Positions 41,391 to 47,552 of a stretch of 64,000 bases of DNA are shown here, one piece after another. Location of the stretch: the NCBI GenBank assembly GCA_016125275.1, contig WGMB01000015.1, forward strand, positions 62,001 to 126,000, given 5' to 3'. Numbering within the stretch: position 1 is the first letter of the stretch; every line of letters starts with the position of its first letter. Source of the DNA: Acidobacteriota bacterium. GTDB taxonomy: Bacteria; Acidobacteriota; Terriglobia; Bryobacterales; UBA6623. The notes below the pieces were generated by a model that was not told the DNA's origin, did no database searches, and saw only the letters and a list, made by a program, of their open reading frames with translations. The position numbers and the translations under genes are program-made.

Positions 41391-44300
41391 TTGAACGTGA
41401 AACTCAGCAGTGCAATCCCACTGCTCCGCACGATCGGAGCACTCGCGATCGCGCTCGCGCTCGTCAGCCCCGCCCAGGCGCAGGTGCTCTACGGCACTCT
41501 GCTCGGCAACGTCACGGACCCCTCGGGCTCGTCGGCCCCCGGCGCCGAGGTCGTGGTGCGCAGCCTGTCCACCGGACGCGAACGCACGGTCCAGACCGAC
41601 GGACAAGGGTTCTACGCCTTGCGCGATCTGCAGGGCGGCGAGTACGACGTAGCGGTGACGGCCCCCGGCTTCAGCCTCTCCGAGCGCTCCTCGGTCGAGA
41701 TCCGGGCGAACGTCGAGACCCGCGTTGATTTTCAGCTCGCCTTGGAATCCTCGGCGACCACCGTCGAGGTCTCGGCCTACGCCTCGGCGCTGCAGACCGA
41801 CCGCGCCGACACCCATAGCGACATCTCCAGCCGCCAGATCCAGAACCTGCCCCTGTCCGGCTACCGCAACTACCAGAGCCTGCTCGACACCGTTCCCGGC
41901 GCCACCCCCACCAAGTTCCAGAACGCCATGATCGACAGCCCGGCGCGGTCGCTCACCACCAACATCAACGGCTCCTCGCGCAACACCAACAACACGCGCA
42001 TCGACGGCGCCACCAGCACCTTCCCCTACCTGCCGCACCACACCCTCTACAACCCGCCCGCCGAAGCCATCGAGACGGTCAACGTTACCACCAACAGCTT
42101 CGCCGCCGAGCAGGGCATCGCGGGCGGAGCGGCCATCACCGTCATCACCAAGTCGGGCACGAACGACCTGCACGGCGTGGCCTTCGAGCACCACAACAAC
42201 GCCACCATGAACGCCCGCAACTTCTTCTACCTCAAGCCCGACCGCCAGAAGAACATCCTCAACCAGTTCGGCGGCACGCTGGGCGGACCGATCGTGCGCA
42301 ACAAGCTCTTCTACTTCGGCAGCTACGAGGGCATGCGCCAGCGGCAGGAGTACTCCACGATCACCTCCGTCCCCACCCCCGGCTACCGCGCGGGCGACTT
42401 CAACGGCCTCGCCTCCATCTACGACCCGCTCACCGGCGACGCCTCGGGCCGCAACCGCCAGGCCTTCGCCAACGACACGATCCCCACCACCCGGCTGGAC
42501 CCCGCCGCGCTCCGCCTGCAGGAGCTGTTGCCGCTGCCCAACCTCTCCGGCACGGCCAACAACTACTTCGTCTCCGGCGGCGTGCCCTTTGACCGCCACA
42601 ACGTCGACGCCAAGGTCAACTGGAACGTCGACGACCGCTCCACTCTGTTCGGCAAGTACAGCGTCATGGACGCCACGGTGCAAGGCGAGCCCAGCCTCGG
42701 CGCGGCCTTCGGCTCCGGCCTGGTGCCGGGCGGCGGCTCCGGCAAGGGCCACACGCTGGTGCAGGTGGTCGGCGTGGGCTTTACGCGCGCCTTCACCCCG
42801 GCCTGGATGTTCGACGCCAACTTCGGCTTCAGCCGCCTGGGCCAGAACGTTCTGGAGCAGGACTACGGCGTCAACTACGGCCTGGACCTGCTGGGCATCC
42901 CCGGGACCAACGGCCCCACGCCGCGCGAGAGCGGCATGCCGTCGTTCGCCGTCTCCGGCTTCCCCACCTTCGGCAACCCGGACGCCTGGACGCCGGCCTT
43001 CCGCAACGACAACGTCTTCACCTATGTCGCCAACGTGGCCTACTCGAGCAACGGCCACAACCTGCGCTTCGGCATGGACCTCAACAACACGTCGATGAGC
43101 GACTACCAGCCCCAACGCGGCTTCGGCCCGCGCGGCGGCTTCACCTTCGCCGGCGGCGTGACGGGCCTCAACGGCGGCGCCGCCCCGACCCAGGCCAACT
43201 CCTATGCGGCCTATCTGCTCGGCCTGCCGGCCTCGCTCGGCAAGAGCTACCAGAACTTCAACCCCATGACCGTGCGCGAGTGGCAGTCCGGCCTCTACGC
43301 CCAGGATCAGTGGCAGGCCACCCGCACGCTGACGATCACGCTCGGCCTGCGCTGGGAGTACTACCCGATCATCCGCCGGGCCGACGGACGCGGCATCGAG
43401 CGCTACGACCTGACCAACAACATGGTCTACCTGGGCTGCATCGGCGGCGTTCCTTGCAACGCCGGCACCCAGCCCGGCAAGAACCAGTGGGCGCCGCGCG
43501 CCGGCCTGGCCTGGCGCATGAACCCCAAGAGCGTCGCCCGCGCCGGCTTCGGCATCAGCCGCGACCCCTACCCGTTCTCCCGCGCCATGCGTGACCCCTA
43601 CCCGGTCACCATCGCCCAAACCATCAACTCTTCGAGCTCCTACACCGCCGCCGGCACGCTGGCCGAAGGCATCCCGGCGCTCGATCCCATCGACCTCTCC
43701 AGCGGCGTGGTCGAGCTGCCGCTCGACGCCTACACTAAGACGCTGCTGCCGGGGAACTACAACCGCGGCTACGTGGAGAGCTTCAACTTCACCCTCGAGC
43801 GGCAGTTGCCCGGCTCCTTCGTCGCCTCCGCCGCCTACGTCGGCACGCGCAGCATCCGCCAGACGGCCTACCTCGAGATGAACGCCGGTCAGGTCCCCGG
43901 CGCCGGTTCCGCCGGACGCCCGCTCAACGTGCTGTTCGGCCGCAACGCCTCCACCCAAGCGATCGTTCCGTTCCAAACCGCGAACTACAACTCGCTGCAG
44001 GCCACCCTCAACCGCCGCTACGCCAACGGCGTGGTGCTGACCACCTCCTACACCTACTCCAAGTCGATCGACTACAACACCGACGGCGACAGCGGCCTCA
44101 TGTTCAACGCCCAGTCGGCCCTGGAACGCAACCGGGCGGTCAGCAACTTCGACCGAACCCACATGTTCGTGACCAGCATCGCCGCCGAGCTGCCGTTCGG
44201 CAAGGGCAAGCCCTGGCTCAACCAGCCCGGCGTGGCCCGGGCCGTGCTCGGCGGCTGGCAGGTCAACAGCATCTTCTCGGCCTACACCGGCCTGCCCTAC

Positions 44301-44702
44301 ACGGTCACGGCTTCGGCCACCTCCCTCAACGCCCCCGGCAACACCCAGGTCGCCGATCAGGTCAAGGCCGAAGTCGCCACCCTGGGCGGCGTCGGCAGCA
44401 ACCCCTGGTTCGACACCTCGGCCTTCGCCGCCGTGCGCGACGTGCGTTTCGGCAACTCCGGCCGCAACACCCTGCGCGGACCGCACATGGTCAACCTCAA
44501 CCTGGGCCTCTTCCGCCGCTTCACCTTCGCGGAGAAGTACAACCTGGAGCTGCGCGGAGAGCTGTTCAACCTCACCAACACGCCGCCGTTCAACAATCCC
44601 AACGCCAGCGTCGGGAGCGGCTCCTACGGCTACATCACCTCCACCGTCGGCGGCCCCGCCGATTCCCGGGTGATCCGCGTGTCGGGCCGGTTGAGCTTCT
44701 AG
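41391..44702 (+). CDS. TonB-dependent receptor with carboxypeptidase-regulatory domain (Oar-like), copy 3
   Basis: A 1103-residue outer-membrane receptor from a TTG start with GGAGG 6-10 bases upstream. Signal peptide (ALALVSPAQAQ), then YGTLLGNVTDPSGSSAPGAE as regulatory-like domain, then a plug with LPLSGYRNYQSLLDTVPGA, NNTRIDGATS and VNVTTNSFAAEQGIAGGAAI, then a large barrel with several YVGTRSIR-, LQATLNRRYANG- and TYTYSKSIDYN-type strands. It ends VIRVSGRLSF. It is closer to copy 1 than to copy 2. The CehA-type gene follows after 2 bases, so the two are translationally coupled. Substrate unknown. Confidence 0.93.
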   Translation: MNVKLSSAIPLLRTIGALAIALALVSPAQAQVLYGTLLGNVTDPSGSSAPGAEVVVRSLSTGRERTVQTDGQGFYALRDLQGGEYDVAVTAPGFSLSERSSVEIRANVETRVDFQLALESSATTVEVSAYASALQTDRADTHSDISSRQIQNLPLSGYRNYQSLLDTVPGATPTKFQNAMIDSPARSLTTNINGSSRNTNNTRIDGATSTFPYLPHHTLYNPPAEAIETVNVTTNSFAAEQGIAGGAAITVITKSGTNDLHGVAFEHHNNATMNARNFFYLKPDRQKNILNQFGGTLGGPIVRNKLFYFGSYEGMRQRQEYSTITSVPTPGYRAGDFNGLASIYDPLTGDASGRNRQAFANDTIPTTRLDPAALRLQELLPLPNLSGTANNYFVSGGVPFDRHNVDAKVNWNVDDRSTLFGKYSVMDATVQGEPSLGAAFGSGLVPGGGSGKGHTLVQVVGVGFTRAFTPAWMFDANFGFSRLGQNVLEQDYGVNYGLDLLGIPGTNGPTPRESGMPSFAVSGFPTFGNPDAWTPAFRNDNVFTYVANVAYSSNGHNLRFGMDLNNTSMSDYQPQRGFGPRGGFTFAGGVTGLNGGAAPTQANSYAAYLLGLPASLGKSYQNFNPMTVREWQSGLYAQDQWQATRTLTITLGLRWEYYPIIRRADGRGIERYDLTNNMVYLGCIGGVPCNAGTQPGKNQWAPRAGLAWRMNPKSVARAGFGISRDPYPFSRAMRDPYPVTIAQTINSSSSYTAAGTLAEGIPALDPIDLSSGVVELPLDAYTKTLLPGNYNRGYVESFNFTLERQLPGSFVASAAYVGTRSIRQTAYLEMNAGQVPGAGSAGRPLNVLFGRNASTQAIVPFQTANYNSLQATLNRRYANGVVLTTSYTYSKSIDYNTDGDSGLMFNAQSALERNRAVSNFDRTHMFVTSIAAELPFGKGKPWLNQPGVARAVLGGWQVNSIFSAYTGLPYTVTASATSLNAPGNTQVADQVKAEVATLGGVGSNPWFDTSAFAAVRDVRFGNSGRNTLRGPHMVNLNLGLFRRFTFAEKYNLELRGELFNLTNTPPFNNPNASVGSGSYGYITSTVGGPADSRVIRVSGRLSF

Positions 44703-44704
44703 GC

Positions 44705-46699
44705 ATGACTCGGCGAACCTCTTTCGAGACCGCCTCCCTCTGGCTGGCCGCGGCGGCGCTTGCAACCGCCGGGGCCGCCCGCGGCGCGGACACTTGCCAA
44801 GGGACGCATTCCCTGCGAGCCCTGGCCGGTCCTCCGGAGTGGAGCGACTCCTCGCCGGAGGCTTCGCCGAGCCTGCTCTGCCGTCTGGACGCCGGGCCCT
44901 CCCAGGGTCCGGCCGTCCTGCGGCTGCGGCAAAACGACGTCAAGCGCCCCGACTGGGGCGTCTTCCTCAACGGCTCGTCCCTCGGCGCCCTGCCGGCGGA
45001 CGAGCATCTCCAAGTCCAAGCCTTCGAGGTCCCCGCCGGCCTCCTCCGCCCCTCAGGCAATGAGCTGCGCATCGCACCGCTACGCCAGGGCGGCGGACCG
45101 GACGACATTCGCGTCGACGACGTGGAGTTGCTGCCCGGCCCCTTGGCGCAGTGGCTCGACGCCGGCCGTATCCGAGTCCGCGTCGTGGACGAGCGCGGCC
45201 AGGCCCTTCCGGCTCGGATCACCCTCACCCACCACGACGCCCTGCTGCCCGTCGGGACCCCCGCCGGCGCGGACTTGGCCGTCCGCACCGGCGTGGTCTA
45301 CACGGCGTCCGGGACGGCGGAGTTCACCGCGCCCGCCGGCGACCTGGTCGTTTGGGCCAGCCGGGGCTTCGAGTACGGCTACGCCCGGCGGGCGCTGCGC
45401 GTGGAGCGCGGCTCCCGCCACGACCTCGAGCTGCGCCTCGAGCGCGAGGTCCGCATTCCCGGCTGGGCCGCCGGAGACACCCATCTGCACACCCTGGAGT
45501 TTTCCGGCCACGGCGACGCCACCGCCGCCGAACGGTCCGTCACCGTCGCCGGCGAAGGCCTGGCCTGGGCGGTCAGCACCGAGCACAACCGCCTGGAGAC
45601 GATCCACGACCGCGGCGGCGCTTTCGTTTCGATCCGCGGCGTCGAGTTCACCACCCGGCACGGCCACTTCAACCTCTTCCCGTGGCCTGCGGGCCTCGCA
45701 CTGCCCAGCCCCTCTCTGCCTTGGGAGGAGCTCTGGCGGGCCTTGCCGGGCGGAAACGCCGTTGTGGCCGTCTGGAACCACCCGCGCGACACCCACGGCG
45801 GCTACAGGCCCTTCGACCCCTCGCACTATGACGAGCTCACGGCGCGGTCGCTCGACGGGCGGGTCTTTCCCGGCGACGCCTTGGAGGCGGTCAACTCCGG
45901 CGCCATGTACTCCGAGCCCCTCCGGCTGGTCGCCGACTGGATGCGCCATCTCAACCGCGGCGCGCGCCTCAACGCCGTCGGAAGCAGCGACTCCCACACG
46001 GTCACTACCACTCTGGTCGGACAAGCCCGCACCTACGTCCACGTCGGCGACGAGGCCCTGACCCCACAGTCGGTGGCGGCGGCCTTCTCCCGCGGCGAAA
46101 CCGCGGTCAGCTACGGGCTGGCGGCCTTCCTCGAGCGCCGCGGCGACCGCCTGGTCGCCCGTGTCTACGGCCCCTCCTGGAACCGCGCGCGGCGTCTGGT
46201 CGTGTTCTCCAACGGAGAAACGATCGCCGAGATCGCCATCGACGGGCCCGCGGCCGGCGGCCTCCAGTGGGAAGGCGAGATCGAGCCGCCCCGGCTCCGC
46301 CACGACGCCTGGTTGGCGGTGGCGGCGCTCGGCGACGACCCGGCCGTCCCGTTCTGGCCCCTGAACCGGCCCTATCAGCCCGTCACGCCGCAGTGGACGC
46401 CCGCCACGCTGGGAATCTCCCCCGCCCTCGCCTGGGACGGCGATGGCGACGGCCGCTTCGAGACCGCCAAGGAGCTGGCCGAAGGCCTCCTGCGCGGCGC
46501 CGCCGAGCCCGCCGCCGTCGCAGAGGCTCTGCGCTCCTTTGACGCCGCCGTGGCCGCGCAGGCCGCCGCTCTGCTGGCCGAACAGGGCAGGCTGGAGGCC
46601 GTCCTCAGCGCGTCTGACGCCCTGGGCCCCCATCCCACCGCCCAGGTCTTGCGCACGTTCCGAGACCAAGCGGCGAAACGCCAACGGCCGGCGCGCTAA
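44705..46699 (+). CDS. Exported CehA/McbA-type metallohydrolase
   Basis: A 664-residue protein with a signal peptide (LAAAALATAGAARG). Residues of about 30-150 form a beta-sandwich like a galactose-binding domain (WGVFLNGSSLGALPADEHLQ). After a short beta domain the PHP-like hydrolase begins at residue 257 with GDTHLHTLEFSGHGDA; VSTEHNR, VWNHPRDTHGG and NAVGSSDSH supply the further His and Asp ligands. No PD40 propeller is present, in contrast with the two fusions in 28-35 kb. It is coupled to the receptor at 41391. The gene overlaps the end of the selenoprotein gene by four bases on the other strand. Confidence 0.85.
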   Translation: MTRRTSFETASLWLAAAALATAGAARGADTCQGTHSLRALAGPPEWSDSSPEASPSLLCRLDAGPSQGPAVLRLRQNDVKRPDWGVFLNGSSLGALPADEHLQVQAFEVPAGLLRPSGNELRIAPLRQGGGPDDIRVDDVELLPGPLAQWLDAGRIRVRVVDERGQALPARITLTHHDALLPVGTPAGADLAVRTGVVYTASGTAEFTAPAGDLVVWASRGFEYGYARRALRVERGSRHDLELRLEREVRIPGWAAGDTHLHTLEFSGHGDATAAERSVTVAGEGLAWAVSTEHNRLETIHDRGGAFVSIRGVEFTTRHGHFNLFPWPAGLALPSPSLPWEELWRALPGGNAVVAVWNHPRDTHGGYRPFDPSHYDELTARSLDGRVFPGDALEAVNSGAMYSEPLRLVADWMRHLNRGARLNAVGSSDSHTVTTTLVGQARTYVHVGDEALTPQSVAAAFSRGETAVSYGLAAFLERRGDRLVARVYGPSWNRARRLVVFSNGETIAEIAIDGPAAGGLQWEGEIEPPRLRHDAWLAVAALGDDPAVPFWPLNRPYQPVTPQWTPATLGISPALAWDGDGDGRFETAKELAEGLLRGAAEPAAVAEALRSFDAAVAAQAAALLAEQGRLEAVLSASDALGPHPTAQVLRTFRDQAAKRQRPAR

Positions 46700-47439
46700 T
46701 CCTCGCGCCGCGCCGCCGCCTCAGCCCCGCCGCCCAGGGTCTTCACCAGCGCCTTCTCCATCTCGGCCGGGTGGAACCCGAACGGGCCGGGCTGGCTCTT
46801 GAACGTCACGCGCCCGTCCTTGTCGATCACGTAAAGGCGATCCGGCCAGCCGGTGTAGTCCTGCTCGGCGCCGTCGGCGATCCCGTCGATCAGCGCCGGA
46901 ATCTTGATCCCCAGCTTGCGCACGCAGGCCGTCGCCAGGTCGATGCGTTCGGCGTCCGTCTTGGGGCTGGCGAACACCACCTCGTCGCGCACGTTCGCCT
47001 GCACCTGCCACAGATCGCTGGGGTGCGCTTCCTGGATGTACACCACGAAGAACGCGGCCTGGTCGCCATATTGCTCGTAGAGACGATTGAGCTCGGGAAC
47101 CTCCCGGCGAAAGGGCGGTCAAGTGTAGCTGCCGAAGACCAGCACCACCGGCCTCGACCCGCGAAAGTCGCTCAGCCGCACCATCCCGCTCTTGTCATAC
47201 TTGGGCAGCTCGAAATCCGGAGCGGCGTCGCCGACGGAAAGATCGCCCGCCCGCGCCGCCTTCCACAGCGGACGGAACGGCAGAATCGCCATCAGCGGCT
47301 TCGGCGTTTGCTTGACGATCAGCCCGAACTCATCCGGCGGCTGGCTCATCGCCCAGAAGAAGAACCCGCAGAACAAGGCGTAGAGCCCCGCGAGCAGCCC
47401 CGCCGCCGCCAACAACTTGCCTCCCAGCCCCCGCCTCAT
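46696..47439 (-). CDS. Iodothyronine deiodinase-like selenoprotein (in-frame TGA read as selenocysteine)
   Basis: A 247-residue thioredoxin-fold protein if the TGA at 47119-47121 is read as selenocysteine (residue 107). Two frames that look separate are in phase across it. The joined sequence reads PVVLVFGSYT-Sec-PPF and then VVYIQEAHPSDLW, matching the deiodinase active site (FGSCT-Sec-P-x-F) and its YIEEAH region with catalytic His. A membrane anchor lies at residues 8-30. ATG 47439 has GAGGAGG upstream. Animal homologs remove iodine from thyroid hormones; the bacterial role is unknown and may be reductive dehalogenation or peroxide reduction. The sel genes are not in the window. Confidence 0.88.
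47094..47121 (-). promoter_or_regulatory. Selenocysteine TGA and bacterial SECIS-like hairpin
   Basis: Immediately after the TGA (47119-47121), CGGGA (47102-47106) and TCCCG (47094-47098) form a 5-bp stem closing a GGT loop. The loop starts 18 bases after the TGA. Bacterial SECIS elements need a short apical stem with G at the loop start about 16-37 bases downstream, so it fits well. Confidence 0.75.
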
Positions 47440-47552
47440 GCCGCCATCCTCCTCGCCCCAATCGCCCGCGCCGCCGGAACCCACACCAACGCAGCGGCGG
47501 TGTTCATACAGTCTAGCCCGCCGGGATCAAATCTCTTCACAAGCCCCGTGGC

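Follow-up and report, generated by a model that had tools for sequence, protein, structure and literature searches.

A deiodinase-like gene of Acidobacteriota with a probable selenocysteine codon and bacterial SECIS hairpin

Work on the Sargasso Sea and GOS metagenomes has described deiodinase-like selenoproteins from bacteria, with 4 selenocysteine (Sec)-containing marine metagenome sequences of the family in 2005 and 22 in 2008 (PMC1088965, PMC2398784). Two later reviews give the family as UxxC. In the animal deiodinases (DIOs), a relay of Ser, Thr, Tyr, Glu and His is proposed to supply protons (PMC11592359, PMC9141512), and a proximal Cys resolves the Sec in DIO1 (PMC9141512). Searching the literature on the family, we found no function for any bacterial deiodinase-like protein, 20 years after these became known.

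We analyzed a gene of this type in a 64-kb stretch of acidobacterial DNA (the window). The gene occupies 46696..47439 on the minus strand, from an ATG at 47439 to a TAG stop at 46696-46698, and a single TGA interrupts its frame at codon 107 (47119..47121). With the TGA translated as Sec, the product has 247 residues. A ribosome-binding site (AGGAGG, 47448..47453, minus strand) lies 8 nt upstream of the ATG. A reading made earlier from the sequence alone (the sequence-only reading) had joined two frames across this TGA. Its coordinates and length were exact, the two conserved deiodinase motifs that it named, FGSYT-U-PPF and VYIQEAHPSDLW, are both present in the joined protein, and ORF calling with table 11 does split the gene into two ORFs, as it had warned. 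A convergent gene on the plus strand (44705-46699), encoding a metallohydrolase of the CehA/McbA family, overlaps the end of the selenoprotein gene by 4 bases.

The joined protein is most similar to deiodinases. It matched the Pfam profile T4_deiodinase (PF00837) with 101.8 bits (4.6e-29; cut-off 27), the search that the sequence-only reading had proposed. The profiles AhpC-TSA (48.7 bits, 8.7e-13, weaker than T4_deiodinase) and Redoxin were also above cut-off. The nearest PDB sequences were mouse DIO3 (1.7e-19) and DIO2 (1.2e-16), followed by a DsbE-like protein (5.8e-8). An AlphaFold2 model built with 49 homologues had a pLDDT of 95.1. DIO2 and DIO3 were the top two fold matches of this model with Foldseek and also with VIA-align (Z of 22.0 and 21.4), and the next was AhpE (18.5).

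Prediction and sequence show that a membrane helix at the N-terminus precedes a domain of the thioredoxin/peroxiredoxin type. The predicted membrane helix covers residues 9-31 (47347..47415, minus strand), within a model helix of residues 3-31. A hydrophobic N-terminal segment is general in the family (97/103), and the charge bias favors N-in over N-out (83 vs 7). The greater positive charge before the helix suggests that the protein is N-in and that its catalytic domain lies outside the cytoplasm, probably facing the periplasm.

We found that the TGA is conserved. A genome scan gave 303 relatives, and the best 80 of these were all from Acidobacteriota. In each of these 80 best homologues, all from other genomes, the equivalent codon was TGA (80/80), the frame was open on both sides, and the surrounding motif was FGS[YH]TUP. 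A second copy in the same genome (G000, 97.6% complete) is 72% identical to the window gene and also contains one TGA. Three distant homologues (L012, L013 and L170) have Cys at the Sec position and no stop there. Position 107 was thus TGA or Cys and never another sense codon. The comparison shows that UGA-107 is kept as what would be a Sec codon. The three Cys-containing proteins (FGSYSCPNF) have a separate acidobacterial architecture, in which the deiodinase-like domain is C-terminal to TPR repeats (Pfam check in L012).

The genome contains the machinery needed to decode Sec. The sequence-only reading had called for selA, selB, selC and selD, and we found selA, selB, selD and tRNA-Sec (selC) in G000. 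The tRNA-Sec scored 72 bits, and ARAGORN called it tRNA-SeC with anticodon UCA. selD is fused to a pyridine-nucleotide oxidoreductase domain (Pyr_redox_2); this FAD/NAD(P) oxidoreductase domain is on the N-terminal side (L187:2845-5277). Many relatives of G000 in the same order have a separate selD that itself contains one in-frame TGA. In a sample of the phylum, selA was present in 18/19 genomes with the TGA-bearing gene and in 2/18 genomes without the gene, a comparison not controlled for phylogeny because the genomes without the gene all belong to one family. The single genome with the TGA-bearing gene and no selA was G399 (97% complete). The profile match, the sel genes with tRNA-Sec, and the TGA or Cys in homologues all support the selenoprotein reading, and we put the probability that 46696-47439 (minus strand) encodes a selenoprotein of the deiodinase family at roughly 0.93.

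The hairpin that the sequence-only reading had placed after the TGA is present (47091..47108, minus strand). Its core, CGGGA-GGU-UCCCG, is at 47094-47106 with the GGU loop at 47099-47101. The stem begins at the 13th base past the TGA and the loop follows after 17 nt. If one bulged A is allowed, the 5-bp core can be lengthened to 7 bp. Published limits for a bacterial SECIS (bSECIS) are a loop of 3-9 nt with G in the first two loop positions, a stem of 4-16 bp, a spacing of 16-37 nt, and an energy of -7.5 kcal/mol or lower (PMC13188914). The window hairpin is inside all of them, with an energy of -9.8 kcal/mol (27 nt folded). This energy was unremarkable compared to shuffled sequences (z of -1.76 for 27 nt, and of 0.29 for 42 nt, where another fold wins). 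Because it is not significant alone, we did not take it as proof of a SECIS. Rfam gave no match on the 64-kb window or on the hairpin region.

In contrast to the folding energy, comparison with homologues shows that the predicted hairpin is under selection at the level of RNA. In 97/111 TGA-bearing homologues, a stem of 4 bp or more was at exactly the same place, compared to a mean of 3 (maximum 8) in synonymous recodings, indicating that the hairpin is more than chance. A bSECIS-like rule identified 105/111 TGA-bearing sequences, where synonymous recoding predicts 18.8, and 2/6 Cys forms; many of the sequences in these counts are akin and do not represent independent events. Codons +5 to +8 are nearly always CGG GAG GTT CCC among 83 clade members. 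Their synonymous entropies are 0, 0, 0.24 and 0.50 bits, compared to 0.7-2.0 for most other conserved codons. We also measured covariation, with 87 distinct sequences aligned without gaps. In the 7-bp hairpin, 87.5% of cells were paired, 6/7 pairs had changed on both sides, and the covariation score was 0.172 compared to 0.062 for shuffled alignments (0/500). A control in which the pairing partner was slid by +1 was imperfect; it gave a similar score (0.198), but only 55.5% of its cells were paired. In distant members the stem is wholly replaced and the G-rich loop kept: GGUCCCA[GGU]UGGGGCC, GAAGAUC[GGU]GAUCUUC and GGAUGGC[GGC]GCCAUCC. These wholesale replacements are the strongest single evidence that the hairpin would function as a SECIS. 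We also considered fossil SECIS elements in the Cys homologues L012 and L013, and rejected them since synonymous recoding gives such hairpins (P of 0.07 and 0.32).

These results bear on whether the TGA is a true stop, either in a decayed gene or between two separate small proteins. Mechanical ORF calling does produce two ORFs, and both starts are plausible. However, a true stop is hard to reconcile with a TGA in all 80 best homologues with the frame open on either side, with Cys-containing homologues that read through uninterrupted, with the covariation in the hairpin, and with a confident model of a single domain that spans the TGA site. We consider a true stop highly improbable and treat the gene below as encoding a selenoprotein.

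The likely active site contains most of the deiodinase relay. All 109 bacterial sequences had Ser104, Sec/Cys107, Tyr134, Glu137 and His139, and 106/109 had Thr106. Ser104, Thr106, Tyr134, Glu137 and His139 match the proton-relay residues of DIOs. Tyr134, Glu137 and His139 are in VYIQEAH (residues 133-139; 47023..47043, minus strand), the edge of the deiodinase loop-D, and these three residues are also present in DIO2 and DIO3. DIOs have a second relay His (His219 in DIO3, His182 in DIO2), but this position is Pro159 here and is His in just 4/109 sequences, and the position of the proximal Cys of DIO1 and DIO3 is Tyr105. Because of these two replacements, the catalytic cycle would not be identical to that of DIOs.

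Cys172 (46924..46926, minus strand) is a candidate resolving residue. It is the sole Cys of the catalytic domain, and this position is Cys in 94/109 sequences. In 92/111 aligned rows there was exactly one catalytic-domain Cys, at 172; other subclades have a single Cys at 105, 155, 173 or 110. The simplest reading is that there is one resolving Cys, placed differently between lineages. In the cycle that we propose, the Sec selenolate would accept an oxidizing group from the substrate, either a halogen, taken as X+, or a peroxide oxygen, aided by the deiodinase-type proton relay (Ser104, Thr106, Tyr134, Glu137 and His139) and Arg201. Cys172 would then resolve the oxidized Sec to form a selenenyl sulfide, which a cellular thiol would recycle. 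We somewhat favor this cycle with Cys172 as the resolving residue.

Thyroid hormone is not expected to be the substrate of the bacterial enzyme. We regard a small halogenated aromatic as about as likely a substrate as an organic peroxide. The protein could be a periplasmic Sec-dependent thiol peroxidase or disulfide reductase, deiodinase-like in sequence, that acts on organic peroxides or on selenenyl or sulfenyl groups and never on organohalides. We give this an even chance. It is consistent with the AhpC-TSA and Redoxin scores, with the 1-Cys peroxiredoxin AhpE as the next fold match, with a single candidate resolving Cys as in peroxiredoxins, and with the general redox role proposed by the discoverers of the family (PMC1088965). 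Arg201 also appears to occupy the place of the peroxiredoxin active-site Arg. The peroxiredoxin motif is PxxxT/SxxC. Ser104 at -3 from the Sec fits this motif, but the Pro at -7 is replaced by Leu100. In addition, nearly all homologues have the DIO-type loop-D sequence EAH..D.W, which is outside the peroxiredoxin motif, and DIOs outscored peroxiredoxins in both sequence and fold matches.

The protein could also be a reductive dehalogenase. Its Sec would attack a halogen on an aromatic substrate, such as the organohalogens that occur naturally in soil and peat, in the way that the animal DIOs act on iodothyronines. We regard this as a serious possibility at somewhat less than even odds. The conserved relay described above argues for it, and metagenome-assembled genomes (MAGs) of peat and soil are the source of many homologues. 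The missing second relay His argues against it, and we saw no halogen-related gene recurring nearby. Among 55 loci there was no universal partner gene and no conserved neighborhood that names a substrate. In 8/55 loci, an Oar-like TonB-dependent receptor gene is directly upstream on the same strand, which would suggest an imported substrate, but this link is limited to a minority of loci. The second copy also has one such receptor gene, ~0.6 kb upstream (L184:3138-6395). The receptor near the window copy (41391-44702, plus strand) is not the same paralogue and is encoded on the opposite strand. In addition, G000 has 116 matches to such receptors, so the link stays a lead. Receptors resembling that of the second copy (55-56% identity) adjoin a deiodinase-like gene in L122, L123 and L090.

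The family was above cut-off in 30/396 sampled Acidobacteriota genomes, and a search of plasmids found no homologue. The sequence-only reading had guessed at a marine or host-associated organism. This guess was not supported, as the relatives are Acidobacteriota, mostly MAGs from soil, peat and groundwater. In a tree, the UPPF/REVP group, which includes the window gene, is split from an FGSFTU/FGSCTU group, and two animal DIOs fall with the latter on a long branch. We rejected descent of the animal DIOs from near these FGSFTU/FGSCTU subclades (92/98 support), because it rests on two sequences and a very long branch. The acidobacterial sequences L160, L164 and L167 carry the exact DIO1/DIO3 motif FGSCTUPPF. 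We think it unlikely that the whole acidobacterial family consists of envelope-anchored Sec reductive dehalogenases with an animal-type proton relay and a single resolving Cys moved between subclades (105, 110, 155, 172 and 173), from within which the animal DIOs derived.

The window gene is part of a large and apparently undescribed branch of the bacterial deiodinase-like selenoproteins known since 2005. We found no open-access paper joining deiodinase-like proteins to Acidobacteriota, and the acidobacterial clade therefore seems undescribed in the open literature searched. The clade is large, its genomes contain complete Sec machinery, and standard ORF calling splits such genes. With one Sec and one catalytic-domain Cys, these proteins offer clean targets for asking whether deiodinase chemistry predates thyroid hormone.

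Like the window gene, the Sargasso Sea and GOS proteins match PF00837 and have an in-frame UGA, a bacterial SECIS right behind it, and Cys homologues. They differ in being from marine metagenomes, in a family listed as UxxC, whereas the window clade is acidobacterial and has UPPF with no Cys at +3 and one distal Cys172. Among the acidobacterial sequences examined, only L182 has UxxC. NCBIfam NF038285 ("deiodinase family protein") matches residues 68-234 (2.4e-62), but its score of 211.4 bits is below the 250-bit cut-off, and ~170 extra N-terminal positions of the model are unmatched. Animal DIO1-3 (4tr3, 9h48) share FGSxTUPPF, Y..EAHPSD.W, the Ser/Thr/Tyr/Glu/His relay residues, the N-terminal membrane anchor, and the fold (Z of 21-22). 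In contrast, identity to them is 26-29%, Tyr105 replaces the proximal Cys of DIO1 and DIO3, Pro159 replaces the second His, Cys172 is not common to DIOs, and the bacterial SECIS is inside the gene. The AhpE peroxiredoxins and the ResA/TlpA thioredoxins share the thioredoxin fold and have the active residue at the start of the same helix, and ResA is similarly anchored to the membrane. The window protein differs from both in having UPPF instead of CxxC, no peroxiredoxin Pro at -7, and the deiodinase loop.
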